A DNA stretch of 25,256 nt, taken from positions 1 through 25,256 of the IMG/VR virus record IMGVR_UViG_3300027797_000127; one strand, written 5' to 3'. Source of the DNA: a virus. Positions 1,362 to 25,036 of the stretch are shown one piece after another. A program made the translations under genes and the position numbers. Numbering within the stretch: position 1 is the first letter of the stretch; each line of letters opens with the position of its first letter. The notes below the pieces were generated by a model that was not told where the DNA came from, did not search any database, and saw only the letters and a program-made list of their open reading frames with translations.

Positions 1362-1379
1362 CTAACAAGGGTGGGGACA

Positions 1380-2078
1380 ATGGCTAAACAAAAGAAAGAA
1401 ACCTTAGCAGTCGCTTGGTGCGACAATGGTATGGTAGATGGCAAGTTTATGGAAGGTGTTGTAGATACCCTTATAAACTCAGGTGTAGAGTTCTGTGGCT
1501 CGTTAAGAGCACACGGTAATCAGATAGCACAGCAGCGAGAGATGTTAGTTAATCGCTGGTATGACAACAATAAATCTGATTGGTTACTCTGGCTTGACTC
1601 GGACATTATGATTACTCCAGAAAAGTTTTTAAAACTCTGGAATCGTAGAGATGCTAAAGATATACCGTTGCTTACTGGTGTTTACTTTACAAGTAACGAA
1701 CCAGAGCAACCATTGATGAAGCCATTAGCAACTGTATATGAGTTTGCTCAGGCTGAGTTTGGTATTGGGATTAGAAGGCTAGACCCACTACCAAAAAATA
1801 CCTTTATGAAAGTAAGCGCGGCTGGTATGGGATTTTGCCTGATGCACCGTAGCGTAATAACAAGAATTAAAGAAGCGCTGCCAAATGTTCCGTTCTTTAC
1901 AGAGGTGGGTGCTAACAAGCAGTTCACTGGTGAAGACATTTATTTCTTTGCAGTAGTAAACAAAGCAGAGATTCCACTTTGGTGTGACACTGGTGCAACC
2001 GTGGGACATATGAAACGATTCAATATGGACGAAAACTACTATGACGCTTTTGGTAGGGGTAAAGGTTATGCAGACTAA
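1380..2078 (+). CDS. Glycosyltransferase (GT-A fold, DxD motif)
   Basis: This encodes 232 residues from ATG 1380; an in-frame GTG at 1371 is less likely. The segment DWLLWLDSDIMITPEKF carries a D73-S-D75 (DxD) motif after a hydrophobic strand, the metal and sugar-nucleotide site of GT-A glycosyltransferases. It is followed by the aromatic GVYF strand, then GEDIYFF and a late CDTGATVGH, where a histidine commonly closes the metal site. It would transfer a sugar from a nucleotide donor in the cytoplasm. Acceptor and donor are unknown. Lying between capsid and neck genes and next to a methyltransferase, it may decorate virion proteins. The last 11 bases overlap the methyltransferase gene. Confidence 0.75.
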   Translation: MAKQKKETLAVAWCDNGMVDGKFMEGVVDTLINSGVEFCGSLRAHGNQIAQQREMLVNRWYDNNKSDWLLWLDSDIMITPEKFLKLWNRRDAKDIPLLTGVYFTSNEPEQPLMKPLATVYEFAQAEFGIGIRRLDPLPKNTFMKVSAAGMGFCLMHRSVITRIKEALPNVPFFTEVGANKQFTGEDIYFFAVVNKAEIPLWCDTGATVGHMKRFNMDENYYDAFGRGKGYAD

Positions 2079-2661
2079 ATATCCTAATTGGTTTGAAATG
2101 ACTGCAAAGCAAAACTTTGAGTCACAACTACTACCGCTTGCCGGCAAGTTTGGTCTAAGGTTTTTGCAAATCGGCGCTTTTACAGGCGATGCATCTGTCT
2201 GGCTAGTAGATAATGTACTTGTCACAAAGAACTCTGTGCTAGAGGACGTAGATATCTGGACTGGTTCGGATGAGACAGAGCACAAAGAGATGAACTGGTT
2301 AGACGTAGAACGTGTATACGATTCACGGATTGCTTTCCGTCCCAATGTAATTAAGTACAAGATGGATAGCAAAGAGTTTCTTCGCTCTGTTGAAGAACCA
2401 ACGTATGATTTTATCTATATAGATGGAGATCACACCGCAGAAGGTGTGCTACAAGATGCTGTGCTTGCTTGGAGATTACTCAAGCCAGGTGGGATTATGG
2501 CATTTGATGACTATCTATGGGAAGACCCTAGAGGTATCCAGTTCCAGCCAGGCTGGTCAATAGATACCTTTGTGGGAGCAGTCAAAGAAGAATCAGAAGT
2601 TTTACTATCAAACTCTCAAGTATGGCTAAGGAAAAATAATGACAGCAGCCTGGACACGTAA
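2068..2661 (+). CDS. Class I SAM-dependent methyltransferase
   Basis: This encodes 197 residues from ATG 2068, which overlaps the end of the glycosyltransferase gene; an in-frame ATG at 2041 would add nine unlikely residues. LQIGAFTG (33-40) is the SAM-binding glycine loop (motif I). YDFIYIDGDH (113-122), followed by a helix and LLKPGGIMAFDDY, is the Methyltransf_24-like pattern. The family often acts on sugars or small molecules and O-methylates glycans. Pairing with the adjacent glycosyltransferase suggests a two-step glycan modification, for example sugar addition followed by methyl capping. The target is inferred, not shown. The next gene starts within its 3' end. Confidence 0.78.
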   Translation: MQTKYPNWFEMTAKQNFESQLLPLAGKFGLRFLQIGAFTGDASVWLVDNVLVTKNSVLEDVDIWTGSDETEHKEMNWLDVERVYDSRIAFRPNVIKYKMDSKEFLRSVEEPTYDFIYIDGDHTAEGVLQDAVLAWRLLKPGGIMAFDDYLWEDPRGIQFQPGWSIDTFVGAVKEESEVLLSNSQVWLRKNNDSSLDT

Positions 2662-19753: not shown

Positions 19754-19791
19754 AAAAAAAAAGCCCCTCGCACATGGTGTGTGCGAGAGGC
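19754..19791 (-). terminator. Terminator for the leftward operon
   Basis: GCCCCTCGCACA (19763-19774) pairs with TGTGCGAGAGGC (19780-19791) through a five-base loop, with one mismatch. On the minus strand the stem is followed at once by nine T (19762-19754). It lies 16 bases beyond the last leftward gene. A TTATTTTTTA on the other side may let it also stop rightward transcription, less efficiently. Confidence 0.85.
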
Positions 19792-20012: not shown

Positions 20013-20132
20013 TTAAAGCGCTAACGCAAGCATTGTGCCTACGATAACGATCGTAAAGAACGAAGTCCACACGATAAGTCCAATCGAATCACGCACGCTC
20101 ATAGCGAAGTAATCGTAATCATCATTATCCAT
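20013..20132 (-). CDS. Small single-pass membrane protein (39 aa)
   Basis: This encodes 39 residues from ATG 20132, which overlaps the WhiB stop by 8 bases; a start at 20231 would overlap WhiB by over 100 bases and is rejected. The N-terminus is acidic (MDNDDYDYFAMSVRDS), followed by one hydrophobic helix (GLIVWTSFFTIVIVGTMLALAL) that runs to the C-terminus. It is C-terminally anchored in the membrane. Family and role unknown. Confidence 0.6.
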   Translation of the reverse strand: MDNDDYDYFAMSVRDSIGLIVWTSFFTIVIVGTMLALAL

Positions 20133-20430
20133 TGCGACCTGCCCTCTGTACATATTCCATAAACGGGCGATAACTGTCTGAGAAACTTTCAGGCTTAATG
20201 CCCGACTGTTCCTGTAACTCGCGCCGTTCATGTCTATCTAGTCCAGCCCATATTCCGTGTATGTTATCAAAGCGTAAAGAGTAATCTTTACACTCATCAA
20301 AGGCGGGGCATGTGGCACAGATTTTTCTTGCCATCATAGCCTCGGGTGTGCGTGACCATGCTTTAGTGCCACCTACCTCAATAGGAAACCACCACTCAGG
20401 ATCGTGCTGTGCACATGATGCGTCTTTCAT
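20125..20430 (-). CDS. WhiB-family iron-sulfur regulator
   Basis: This encodes 101 residues from ATG 20430. C6, C38, C41 and C47 (AMMARKICATCPAFDECKDY) ligate the [4Fe-4S] cluster. WWFPIE precedes, and GIWAGLDRHERREL is the G-[V/I]-W-G-G-like turn that WhiB proteins use to contact sigma factor and DNA. The family is confined to Actinobacteria and their phages, making this the best host indicator in the window. Phage WhiB proteins can interfere with host WhiB regulation; here it may also control the leftward operon in which it lies. The start overlaps the preceding stop (ATGA). Confidence 0.92.
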   Translation of the reverse strand: MKDASCAQHDPEWWFPIEVGGTKAWSRTPEAMMARKICATCPAFDECKDYSLRFDNIHGIWAGLDRHERRELQEQSGIKPESFSDSYRPFMEYVQRAGRNG

Positions 20431-20768
20431 AACTTACCCCCACCTAAAAAGAATACACGAAATGTGCACTCAAACTTATCGCCCGAACAGGGCGACTTTC
20501 TATTTGCGCCACACGAAGCACATGGGTACTCTTGTGGATTATCCATATCAAAATCCTTCTTGCGAAGGCTCTTGTATTTAATACGCGTAACCTTAGTGAA
20601 AGTGTTCCACTTAAGGCTAACGCGTACCGGTCCGTCTATCTCCCATGAATCATCTATGTGTAGATATTCAGCAGGAAATAGATTTGCGTGTGATGAAAAT
20701 ATACCCTGCTTGGTTTCACGCCAAGCAAGGGTATTCCACTCATATTTTCTTATGCGTGTAACTGTCAT
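20427..20768 (-). CDS. Hypothetical protein with C-terminal zinc motif
   Basis: This encodes 113 residues from ATG 20768, chosen because it overlaps the stop of the small upstream gene in an ATGA; TTG 20798 and ATG 20792 are less likely. The N-terminal 75 residues are beta-rich (WEIDGPVRVSLKWNTFTKVT). C83-x2-C86, C94 and C101 then form a metal-binding module (EYPCASCGANRKSPC). Position between a zinc-ribbon gene and WhiB suggests a nucleic-acid or redox link. Not recognised. Confidence 0.68.
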   Translation of the reverse strand: MTVTRIRKYEWNTLAWRETKQGIFSSHANLFPAEYLHIDDSWEIDGPVRVSLKWNTFTKVTRIKYKSLRKKDFDMDNPQEYPCASCGANRKSPCSGDKFECTFRVFFLGGGKL

Positions 20769-20896
20769 GGTTTTACGCTCATGTTTGACCATGCGCAAGT
20801 CCGACAGTAATTGCGTACTGCTACATCATGCGAAGGCACCATAAGTGGCATATTGCAATCGTAACAATTACGCGTGAGGTATTTCTGTGTAGTCAT
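20765..20896 (-). CDS. Small zinc-ribbon protein (43 aa)
   Basis: A short leftward gene from ATG 20896 to TGA 20767-20765, with AAAGG six bases upstream. The sequence starts MTTQKYLTRNCYDCNMPLMV and has C11-x2-C14 and C31-x2-C34. It overlaps the preceding gene by 29 bases and the following one by 4 (ATGA). Family unknown; a compact ribbon without other domains. Confidence 0.72.
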   Translation of the reverse strand: MTTQKYLTRNCYDCNMPLMVPSHDVAVRNYCRTCAWSNMSVKP

Positions 20897-21074
20897 AGTG
20901 ACCTTTCTCTAACGGGAGTTGCCCCGCTAATGTCTGAAATTGCGTGGCTCGCAACATCAGTTGTGCGTGTTTCGTTGTATCTCCCTGCAATAACGCTTGC
21001 TCAGCGTCATGCAAGAATAACTCGGCGCGTACCCCATAATAGTACGGAGTTGGTGTACCTGTGCGCTTTACCAT
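20868..21074 (-). CDS. Hypothetical helical protein (68 aa)
   Basis: This encodes 68 residues from ATG 21074, which overlaps the amidotransferase stop; the frame is open to 21140. A GGAAGGTGG tract lies upstream. The product MVKRTGTPTPYYYGVRAELF then LHDAEQALLQGDTTKHAQLM forms helices without cysteine. It could be a small partner of the adjacent enzyme, as overlapping genes in this operon suggest, but this is inference. Confidence 0.65.
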   Translation of the reverse strand: MVKRTGTPTPYYYGVRAELFLHDAEQALLQGDTTKHAQLMLRATQFQTLAGQLPLEKGHYDYTEIPHA

Positions 21075-21880
21075 GTCCAAGCACCACCTTCCGTAGGATA
21101 CGGCTTTACCTTGTTCGTTGCTCTTTGATAACACAGGCAATCACCCTTACGGCAATAGCATGAGTAGCATGAGGAACATGTCTCACAGTAATTCGGGTCG
21201 CTATCGTACCCAATTTCTACGGCAGTATCGCATACCATGCAGTAGTCACCTGTGTCATTGACGCCGAAGTCAATAGGCTTGACGGAGTACCAACTACGAG
21301 CACTAGAAGTGGGTAAGTAACACGAGTCGTTAGACCACCATGTACCTGTGGAGTCTTTAGTGCCCTTGTTCTCGTGTATCAGATAGGCTTGCCATTGAGC
21401 GCGTGTGTCTACCGTTAAGATAGCAACCTTAGAACCCGAAGTGAAATCCTCAATGAGGTTCATCACTTGTACATTGTCGAGTGCAGATACACCACCTATA
21501 GCAGGTAGCAAATCCTCAGCAAAGATACGCGTGTCACTTCGCATATCTCCTGTTGGCTCAATGATAGGCAGTATGCCATTGTGTGCAAGATAGGTACGCT
21601 CATCGCCACCTACCTTAAACGGATGACAGTTATCTACTGTCGTTGAGCCATGCGTGGCAAGTCGAGCGTGCCATAGGGCATACCCTTCGAGATACTTGTT
21701 ACGCATTTCGATGAAGCGGTTGATCGAAGTGTCGGCGTTCATTGTTCGTTCAGCGTGAATACGATTCTCGCTTGGTATAACAATAGCGAACCCGAATCCG
21801 TGTGGATTATTGAGAGCAGAGTTTTCCAATTTCTCTCGTGACGGAATTACATAGGGTGGTACTAGGCATAGCATACACAT
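21068..21880 (-). CDS. Class II glutamine amidotransferase with C-terminal Cys-rich module
   Basis: This encodes 270 residues from ATG 21880 (AAGGAG seven bases before it). MCMLCLVPPY places Cys2 directly after the initiator Met, as required for the Ntn-type nucleophile. HGFGFAIVI, WHARLATHG (R73), YLAHNGIL (N101, G102) and RSDTRIF (S115, D116) are the remaining glutaminase motifs of class II amidotransferases. It would release ammonia from glutamine or cleave a related amide. Residues 214-250 form a Cys-rich tail (CMVC, CETCSSCYSCYCRKGDCLC) not typical of the family. It directly follows the amidoligase gene, 11 bases away, pointing to a coupled reaction. Confidence 0.85.
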   Translation of the reverse strand: MCMLCLVPPYVIPSREKLENSALNNPHGFGFAIVIPSENRIHAERTMNADTSINRFIEMRNKYLEGYALWHARLATHGSTTVDNCHPFKVGGDERTYLAHNGILPIIEPTGDMRSDTRIFAEDLLPAIGGVSALDNVQVMNLIEDFTSGSKVAILTVDTRAQWQAYLIHENKGTKDSTGTWWSNDSCYLPTSSARSWYSVKPIDFGVNDTGDYCMVCDTAVEIGYDSDPNYCETCSSCYSCYCRKGDCLCYQRATNKVKPYPTEGGAWTW

Positions 21881-21891
21881 GTCATATCTCC

Positions 21892-23361
21892 TTAGTTATC
21901 ATCATCTGATGGGTCTTGGTCACGAGTGAACGATTCGCTCATGATTAACGCTAGGTTGGGGTACTTGACCGACTCATTTGATACATACGCAGCAAAGCGT
22001 AACCAAGATAAGGCGGTGTTATTGCCTGTAACTTTAAGATCGCGAGTGTATTCCACACCAGCAGTTACAAACTCTAACGCAGAAAGTATGCGTTCTTTGC
22101 GGAGAGAACCCTTAAAGACGCGTATTTCTATCGTTGCGAAGTTTTCCGTATTAACGGCTGCACAATGTCCGTCTCTAGATTGTCCATGCTTGACCTTAGG
22201 TACGAGTTTTCCCTTGTCCGAGAAAGACGCGTAACTATTTGATGGACGCCCAGCAATACGCGCTACTTGTCGCTCATTGTCGTAAATGAGTTTCATGAAC
22301 CGCAGTTGGTGTGCTTGCATGTGCATGATATCTTGTGGGTTACTATCCCACTCAACCCTACCGCCAAAGGCTTCACGAGATACATGGACATGAAGCCCAC
22401 AAGTAGTCGTATTCCATGAGCGGTGTCCGCTACTCTTTAACTTCCTTAGTACACTCCACTCAAACTTCTTTTGATAGTACTCAAGCGTGTGTGGGTGTGT
22501 GACTATCTCAAATCCGTCATTGAGTGAGCCGTCAGATTTCATGTATGCGTGGTTACCCAGTATGTCTTGTGCTATCTGCGCACCTTCATGGCGTGAAATA
22601 GAACGAGCCTCAACCTCTAACTCAAAGCCCATGTGATATGAACCTTCGCCAAAGAATATGGGGTTGGGCTTGTATCCGTAACTGTGGATGATATTATTGC
22701 GCTCAACTTCCTCGCAGTAATGGGAGTTACCACTCCAAACATCACTCCCACATTCATCACAGTCGTAGACATTATCACTCACACAGTCGCTACAATATCT
22801 CTGACCATTGTATATGCTAGTGTTGTTATCGTGAACAGTATTCTCACAATTCTCACAGTAGGTGAAGTTTGCCTCTCCACCATGCGAATCGTAATAAATC
22901 GCACAACACATCTCACAACGCCAGTTACCCTCAACCCTATTAAAACTAGAAAATCGAGCGGTATCAACGGTTGATTCGTTGAGATAGAACGACATGTGTG
23001 TGCCCCAACTTCTTTGTTGAGTGCTTGCGTAGGAATCACCGCAGTCCTCACAGTCCTCGCTCATTGCGCAAGTTCTGTGAACCCTGATTTCAGATCCGTC
23101 TGCTAAGCGTGAATCAGTTAGTGCCCACCTAACCTCATCTGCATACTCAGGCTTGAGACAAGCAACACAGGTATCAACTGTGCTTACGAAGGGGAAGTCC
23201 TCTGCCTTTGGAACAGGTACTTCTTCCATGTCGTTGAAGCGTGTTCTAAGACACCTGATACAGAGTTCAGGAGTCTCAAAGCGTGAGAACACGAATAGAA
23301 ACTCAGGTGAATTACATCTGTGACACATGCCCACTCCTGTAAGTCCGTATGATTCTGTCAT
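21892..23361 (-). CDS. Cys-rich amidoligase (glutamine-synthetase-like ligase)
   Basis: This encodes 489 residues from ATG 23361, with GAAGG about 8 bases upstream; TTG 23388 is rejected. Residues 13-220 hold many paired cysteines: CHRC 13-16, CIRC 34-37, CVAC 65-68, CEDC 104-107, CEMCC 149-153, CENC 169-172, CSDC 190-193, CDEC 201-204. These look like several zinc ribbons or treble clefs. The ligase domain begins near 243: HMGFELEVEAR (E247, E249, E251), DGSLNDGFEIVTHP (277-290), CGLHVHVS (321-328, H324, H326) and FATIEIRVFKGSL (E412, R414). These are the blocks of amidoligase-type COOH-NH2 ligases. It probably forms an amide bond using ATP. The substrate is unknown. Confidence 0.82.
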   Translation of the reverse strand: MTESYGLTGVGMCHRCNSPEFLFVFSRFETPELCIRCLRTRFNDMEEVPVPKAEDFPFVSTVDTCVACLKPEYADEVRWALTDSRLADGSEIRVHRTCAMSEDCEDCGDSYASTQQRSWGTHMSFYLNESTVDTARFSSFNRVEGNWRCEMCCAIYYDSHGGEANFTYCENCENTVHDNNTSIYNGQRYCSDCVSDNVYDCDECGSDVWSGNSHYCEEVERNNIIHSYGYKPNPIFFGEGSYHMGFELEVEARSISRHEGAQIAQDILGNHAYMKSDGSLNDGFEIVTHPHTLEYYQKKFEWSVLRKLKSSGHRSWNTTTCGLHVHVSREAFGGRVEWDSNPQDIMHMQAHQLRFMKLIYDNERQVARIAGRPSNSYASFSDKGKLVPKVKHGQSRDGHCAAVNTENFATIEIRVFKGSLRKERILSALEFVTAGVEYTRDLKVTGNNTALSWLRFAAYVSNESVKYPNLALIMSESFTRDQDPSDDDN

Positions 23362-24045: not shown

Positions 24046-24300
24046 TGTGGGAGTTGTCTGTGCGTGCATACATGCGTGCCGGTGCGTGCGTGTGCGCCGG
24101 TGCGTGCGCATGACGACTATGTATGTACCGCGCGTGGGTATGTTCCGCCCGTAAAAGCGTGCGACACGCCCGACCGCGTGGGTGGGTCTGAGCGTGGGAG
24201 CGTGAGCGTGTCCGAGCGTGCGCGAGCGCGTACGAGCGCGAGCGTGTCCAAGCGTGGAAAGAAAATCGCCCAGCGTGGAAAGGAAAGAACCAAGCGCCGA
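24046..24300. repeat. GC-rich GCGTG repeat region with Z-DNA-prone tracts
   Basis: This stretch is filled with short GCGTG/GAGCGTG/GAGCGCG repeats, especially at 24180-24285, and contains long alternating pyrimidine-purine tracts such as 24059-24079 (21 bases) around a near-palindromic GCATACATGC. A second copy of the 26-base repeat is inside it. I see no reliable gene. It continues into a purine-rich stretch to about 24400. An origin, a protein-binding array or a recombination site is conceivable. Confidence 0.5.
24111..24136. repeat. Dispersed repeat element, copy 3 (26 bases)
   Basis: Exact 26-base direct repeat of 24020-24045. The two copies fall in different reading frames, so the repetition is not due to a repeated protein segment. 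Confidence 0.75.
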
Positions 24301-24421: not shown

Positions 24422-25036
24422 TTGCTTTACTCCCCGAAATCGAGCGCCGAAACACTAAAAAAAAAGATTCTCCAAATGCTCGGTATTCCCTCGATGTCAT
24501 GGTTCAATTCTCCCAGAGGGTCAAACCCCCCTCGGAAAAGCAGGAATATCGTGAAGGAAAAAATGGCAGAGTGGGCGAAAGCAAATTGGGGAAATCTCTC
24601 AGAAAAGTCCGCTAAATCAGTAATAAACCGCGTAATCGCAGTAATCGAGAAAAACCCAACAACGCTAAAAAGCGCGCTAGTCGGACTCACTCAAAGCCTG
24701 AACGCCCTCGGTTCGAAAGAGGACACAACCGAGCAAGACACCGCCGAAGTGTGGTTCATCTCGGAGTTCATAACCGCCATGCTCATCCCTATCGCCGATC
24801 ACATTGACGCGATCACCAAAGAAAACGCCAACACAAAAGCAAGCGCCAGCCCTAAGAAGCGCAGCGAAGTTTGGGCAGACTCGAAAGAGGAAGCCCAAGC
24901 AATAGCCGAAGCGCAGAAGCCAGCCAAGCCAGCACGCAAGCCACGCGGAGCAGAAGCAGAAGCGCCAGCCCTCGAAGTAGGCTCCGACCTACTGAAAGCC
25001 CTCGCGGTACTGAAAAGCGCAGGGTTGATCAAATGA
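24422..25036 (+). CDS. Hypothetical helical protein (start uncertain)
   Basis: The frame runs from TTG 24422 to TGA 25034-25036, up to 204 residues. Better-supported starts may be ATG 24476 or ATG 24563, the latter with AAGGA four bases before it. The sequence is mostly helical: MAEWAKANWGNLSEKSAKSV, AEVWFISEFITAMLIPIADH, then an Ala/Lys/Pro-rich linker (EAQKPAKPARKPRGAEAEAP) and a final helix DLLKALAVLKSAGLIK. No signal or membrane segment is evident. The codons are much more GC-rich than in the left part of the window. Some small terminase subunits have a similar size and charge, but I have no motif to claim that. It overlaps the next gene. Confidence 0.6.
   Translation: MLYSPKSSAETLKKKILQMLGIPSMSWFNSPRGSNPPRKSRNIVKEKMAEWAKANWGNLSEKSAKSVINRVIAVIEKNPTTLKSALVGLTQSLNALGSKEDTTEQDTAEVWFISEFITAMLIPIADHIDAITKENANTKASASPKKRSEVWADSKEEAQAIAEAQKPAKPARKPRGAEAEAPALEVGSDLLKALAVLKSAGLIK

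Follow-up and report, generated by a model that had tools for sequence, protein, structure and literature searches.

A compact amidoligase-amidotransferase pair with cysteine modules in a tailed phage: conservation, relatives and possible functions

The locus and its surroundings

The window analysed here is the whole of a virus contig of 25,256 bases (IMG/VR record IMGVR_UViG_3300027797_000127), which is probably a fragment. Genes for head, tail, lysis and replication functions are accompanied by an exonuclease, a helicase, a primase, a phosphoesterase and a sigma factor (PHROGs and further annotation), and the carrier is a tailed phage. No phage record matched the first 24.9 kb of the window at the DNA level. 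Because the window holds a WhiB-like gene and its relatives include actinobacteriophages, an actinobacterial host is loosely suggested. Fairly near the head gene, the plus strand carries glycosyltransferase-like and DNA-methyltransferase-like ORFs (Table 1).

On the minus strand, a gene for an amidoligase is followed 11 bases downstream, in the same orientation, by a gene for a class II glutamine amidotransferase. Re-reading the sequence confirmed the coordinates, strand, lengths and 11-base gap given in the initial annotation. The junction between the two genes, read directly as TAAGGAGATATGACATG, contains a good ribosome-binding site, AAGGAGATATGACATG. In PHROGs, both proteins match phage families, most of them of unknown function.

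A small ORF overlaps the end of the amidotransferase gene. Its family shares the core TPYYYGVRAELFLHDAEQAL and is represented in 60 of 80 related loci; wherever a homologue was mapped, it follows the amidotransferase immediately. Pfam and PHROGs gave no match for this ORF, and it is possibly a third operon component or a mere neighbour. The same strand block includes a WhiB-like regulator (Pfam E 5.9e-15), which lies near the pair in 58 of the 80 related loci, and the block may be closed by a strong hairpin that resembles an intrinsic terminator by consensus. In near relatives the order is ligase, amidotransferase, small ORF and WhiB-like gene, then a converging sigma factor, phosphoesterase and primase, while in a more distant group the pair precedes a primase on the same strand; gene order within one phage group is weak evidence of function. 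Two further observations concern the flanks of the pair: an ORF on the same strand has a conserved C-terminal CASCGA...C...C motif and is found in 10 related loci, and a stretch of imperfect short tandem repeats lies upstream of the operon.

Table 1. Coordinates of the features discussed, as window positions unless a bacterial contig is named
Feature	Position	Strand	Basis or remark
Glycosyltransferase-like and DNA-methyltransferase-like ORFs	1371-2661	+	
Intrinsic-terminator-like hairpin, 12 pairs then a T run	19763-19791	-	pattern scan, consensus match only
WhiB-like regulator	20125-20430	-	Pfam
ORF with conserved C-terminal cysteine motif	20427-20798	-	
Small ORF, 68 aa if the ATG at 21074 is the start	20868-21074	-	overlaps the end of the amidotransferase gene
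Class II glutamine amidotransferase (predicted), 270 aa	21068-21880	-	Pfam, AlphaFold2, residue conservation
Spacer of 11 bases with the amidotransferase ribosome-binding site	21881-21891	-	sequence read directly
Amidoligase (predicted), 489 aa	21892-23361	-	Pfam, AlphaFold2, residue conservation
Imperfect short tandem repeats, 10-21 bases	24073-24296		before the plus-strand gene at 24422
GajA/GajB (Gabija) near a bacterial pair	L190:1737-5278		
Type IV restriction enzyme near a bacterial pair	L197:10270-12831		

Predicted folds, active sites and cysteine modules

The sequence blocks from which the longer protein had been called an amidoligase are backed by profile searches, in which it scores above the Pfam cut-off for Amidoligase_2 (PF12224; 25.7 bits against 22). 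AlphaFold2 models of both proteins were built with alignments of window relatives, and comparison with PDB structures covered ligase residues 238-489 and amidotransferase residues 1-198. The ligase model (mean pLDDT 88.5) has a predicted glutamine-synthetase fold at about residues 238-489, for which YbdK is the best structural match (Z 12.1, rmsd 4.2, 219 aligned, residues 240-489). Foldseek and the PDB comparison further matched this domain to glutamine synthetases and to plant glutamate-cysteine ligase, and the Pup-system enzymes PafA and Dop are also among the Foldseek matches. Residues E247, E249, D277, S279, E285, H324, H326, N362, R372, N404, E412 and R414 are invariant in 44 aligned sequences, and the catalytic residues are mostly kept in 18 ligases from distant lineages. 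By profile and model, the protein is a member of Amidoligase_2 with a putative activity in ATP-dependent amide ligation.

The shorter protein, initially assigned to the class II amidotransferases for its Cys2, R73, N101-G102 and D116, scores above the Pfam cut-off for PF13230 (GATase_4; 27.2 bits against 23) and slightly below that for PF13522 (24.4 bits against 27). NCBIfam returned weak glmS hits, far below cut-off, and nothing else. The best structural match of its AlphaFold2 model (mean pLDDT 81.9) is the glutaminase domain of GlmS (Z 13.8, rmsd 3.7, 175 aligned); EgtC (Z 13.2) and PurF match as well. Cys2, Arg73, Asn101, Gly102 and Asp116 are invariant among 49 aligned sequences, and the catalytic residues are mostly kept in 78 sequences from distant lineages, a set picked for starting with MC, so that Cys2 is present there by selection. 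Taken together, profile and model identify the protein as a class II glutamine amidotransferase with a GlmS/PurF/EgtC-like Ntn fold and a putative role in glutamine hydrolysis and ammonia transfer. Its glutaminase site is complete, and with no synthase domain of its own it would need a partner. The glutamine-synthetase-like and Ntn folds that the initial annotation had left to structure prediction are thus both predicted, and the loss of catalytic residues in relatives that it had raised as a doubt does not occur in the 44-49 aligned sequences.

Cysteine-rich modules had been noticed at the N-terminus of the ligase and at the C-terminus of the amidotransferase; we could locate their CxxC motifs and found most of their cysteines conserved. 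In the ligase, CxxC motifs at 13, 34, 65, 104, 149, 169, 190 and 201 form modules at about residues 13-37, 65-152 and 169-216, and those from 65 onward are invariant or more than 90% conserved in the 44 sequences. The amidotransferase module spans residues 214-250, with CxxC motifs at 214, 232, 235 and 238 in addition to the pair at the N-terminus, and C214, C217, C232, C235, C238, C241 and C250 are invariant in the 49 sequences. Judged by this pattern, the modules of both proteins probably bind zinc. Similarity of the ligase modules to LIM domains stays below threshold (best PDB LIM chain E 0.013; Pfam LIM on the relative L186 E 0.00094, 19.8 bits against a cut-off of 22.9), and the term LIM-like suggests a lead rather than an assignment. 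The earlier proposal that the modules choose the target is plausible as a putative role.

Spread of the pair and its known relatives

Adjacency was counted in scans seeded with the ligase, since loci found through the amidotransferase are biased; near-duplicates were removed and enough flanking sequence was required. An amidotransferase lies downstream on the same strand within 1500 nt in 100 of 111 non-redundant ligases, a count that varies with the profile thresholds and with the relatives present in the collections. The distance between the genes in these loci is mostly 0-37 nt, or they overlap, and about one in ten ligases has no adjacent amidotransferase. The adjacency is far beyond chance, and the lack of conserved adjacency that would have told against the initial reading is not seen. 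Viral loci found through the amidotransferase have a ligase in 76 of 80 cases; the remaining four have their amidotransferase at a contig edge. Viral contigs searched with the single ligase sequence returned no relatives; alignment queries did find them.

The pair occurs in mycobacteriophage Marvin, a Manatee Spring phage genome, the Methylophilales (OM43) phage MEP402, Clostridia, Coriobacteria and other bacterial contigs, and it spans phages of varied hosts as well as mobile elements of Clostridia and Coriobacteria. A serine recombinase is found nearby in 14 of 40 bacterial loci, and the copy in Pygmaiobacter (L178) is 100% identical to one in a predicted provirus (L224).

Two loci (L164 and L165) have two tandem ligase ORFs ahead of one amidotransferase. 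Two candidate fusions of ligase and amidotransferase were rejected, that in L185 being frameshifted relative to L190 and that in L032 missing the amidotransferase start, including Cys2.

The initial annotation had put the pair forward as the window's best candidate for a previously undescribed system, which it is not. Marvin gp105 and gp106 bear the annotation of glutamine amidotransferase domain proteins, an amidoligase together with an amidotransferase has been reported in OM43 phages (PMC10580990), and a larger cassette has been described (PMC5498523). Marvin gp105/gp106 and MEP402 gp06/gp07 are the same two genes in the same order and on the same strand as in the window, with homologous catalytic domains. 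Sequence identity is low, the Marvin amidotransferase being 36% identical over 71% of the window protein, and the number of CxxC motifs in the ligase differs, with five in Marvin, two in MEP402 and eight in the window.

RIO1-like podoviruses and their relatives carry the larger cassette, a set of seven peptidoglycan-modification genes (PMC5498523, which cites Hardies 2013 and Iyer et al.), and cassette genes are listed for LUZ24-like phages (PMC3890496). The version in phiEco32, LUZ24 and RIO-1 shares with the window the co-occurrence of Amidoligase_2 and a class II amidotransferase, but it adds a gamma-glutamyl cyclotransferase, a COOH-NH2 ligase and an ATP-grasp enzyme, and its amidoligases have no CxxC, unlike the window ligase. 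The cyclotransferase (PF06094) is present in all three reference phages, whereas none was found in the window, 24 related records, Marvin, MEP402 and MW202733; relatives near 41 kb are likewise without it. A profile that detected the COOH-NH2 ligase (PF14395) of phiEco32 and LUZ24 and missed that of RIO-1 found none in the window itself or in 18 related records. The RimK (ATP-grasp) profile matched nothing in the window or its relatives and detected the reference phages weakly or not at all. Since neither PF06094 nor PF14395 was found and the ligase carries CxxC motifs, the window holds a compact two-gene, Cys-module form already represented by Marvin.

An adjacent amidotransferase accompanies one of the six ligases that have no CxxC and 99 of the 105 that have at least two, a pattern that modules serving the partnership would produce (p = 0.002, tested at a threshold of four CxxC), although the groups are small, the sequences related and the split picked after seeing the data, and the relation is suggestive only. 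The modules are not required for every pairing, because the phiEco32, LUZ24 and RIO-1 amidoligases keep an amidotransferase in their cassette.

Possible functions of the pair

Unrelated phages and bacterial mobile elements commonly carry the pair, which is tightly conserved and keeps its catalytic residues. It is a genuine pair, present in many phages and known from the literature; our best guess for its function is the glutamine-dependent amidation of a carboxylate. Papers citing Iyer et al. 2009 see related cassettes as modifying the cell wall or blocking superinfection (PMC10580990, PMC5498523); the OM43 study, with reference to that work and to the Marvin paper, names cell-wall modification, superinfection or secondary metabolites as proposed roles (PMC10580990). 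No substrate of the pair is demonstrated in the literature found. Its discovery would resolve a proposal repeated in phage papers on the strength of gene context, and would tell what purpose the conserved cysteine modules have.

We favour, with confidence and doubt about evenly balanced, a two-subunit glutamine-dependent amidoligase of a tailed phage, because a complete glutaminase site without a synthase domain has an ATP-dependent ligase as its constant neighbour. The amidotransferase, with Cys2 at its N-terminus after removal of the methionine, would release ammonia from glutamine, and the ligase would use ATP to activate a carboxylate as an acyl phosphate in the manner of glutamine synthetase. 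Ammonia would then pass from one subunit to the other and be added to the carboxylate, giving an amide. The cysteine modules would dock the subunits on each other, on a macromolecular substrate, or both, and the phage would probably benefit when taking over its host or competing with other phages, for instance by altering the cell envelope. What points to a conflict role is context, namely the mobile elements and two defence-gene neighbourhoods, together with the published proposals. Among the few bacterial contexts examined, without a systematic count, two have defence genes near the pair, Gabija in one and a type IV restriction enzyme in the other. The two predicted folds, the conserved catalytic residues and cysteines and the strict gene pairing support the favoured reading; the ammonia transfer, zinc binding, complex, substrate and benefit are inferred. 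Every functional statement here draws on sequence, predicted structure and gene context. MurT/GatD consists of a Mur-ligase-like protein and a class I amidotransferase, both unrelated to the window proteins. The window pair would work alike, MurT/GatD carrying out a glutamine-dependent amidation of peptidoglycan glutamate (PMC3267633). Against a glutamine-dependent complex stands the roughly one in ten ligases without an adjacent amidotransferase.

The main rival, which we hold to be unlikely, is a pair of opposed enzymes: the ligase would join an amino acid or an amine to a carboxylate, and the Ntn enzyme would be an amidase that removes or edits a gamma-glutamyl (or similar) amide. In ergothioneine biosynthesis, the glutamine-synthetase-fold ligase EgtA works with the Ntn amidase EgtC, which hydrolyses a gamma-glutamyl amide and does not feed ammonia to a synthase. 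EgtC fits the amidotransferase fold as well as GlmS does (Z 13.2 against 13.8), which leaves room for a hydrolase role, and the ligase has plant glutamate-cysteine ligase among its best matches. The likeness to EgtA/EgtC is at the fold level, with none closer seen, and no other ergothioneine genes were noticed in the window. The RIO1-like cassette also fits such a division of labour, its amidotransferase being grouped with degradation genes (PMC5498523). Yet Asn101-Gly102 and Arg73, expected of a glutaminase site, are fully conserved, and the tight one-to-one adjacency suits a stoichiometric complex at least equally.

Protein or peptide tagging, a more doubtful reading still, would have the cysteine modules binding a host or phage protein to which the ligase attaches an amino acid, a peptide or ammonia, comparable to Pup ligation. 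The weak resemblance of the N-terminal modules to LIM domains and the Foldseek matches to PafA and Dop point this way, but that resemblance is below threshold, and the ligase matches glutamine synthetase and YbdK equally well or better. The small ORF downstream of the amidotransferase, the one small ORF considered in this respect, belongs to a family with no conserved Pup-like C-terminal Gly-Gly-Glu/Gln. Far less probable than any of these is an auxiliary metabolic pair boosting nitrogen assimilation in the infected host, as suggested for a phage with an amidoligase, an amidotransferase, a glutathione synthase and a gamma-glutamyl cyclotransferase (PMC10945688). That proposal draws on the growth of cells with the whole phage instead of on the genes. 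A pair that consumes glutamine alone assimilates no nitrogen, and conserved cysteine modules would be unexpected in an enzyme of small-molecule metabolism.

A bolder version, which we regard as rather improbable, makes the Cys-module ligase and its amidotransferase a protein-modifying conflict system of phages and mobile elements, distinct from the cell-wall cassette, whose LIM-like array would pick out the host protein to be amidated or tagged in a glutamine-dependent way. PADLOC gave no match to a known defence system for the two window proteins and their relatives. Among the few bacterial contexts examined, without a systematic count, two have defence genes near the pair, Gabija in one and a type IV restriction enzyme in the other.
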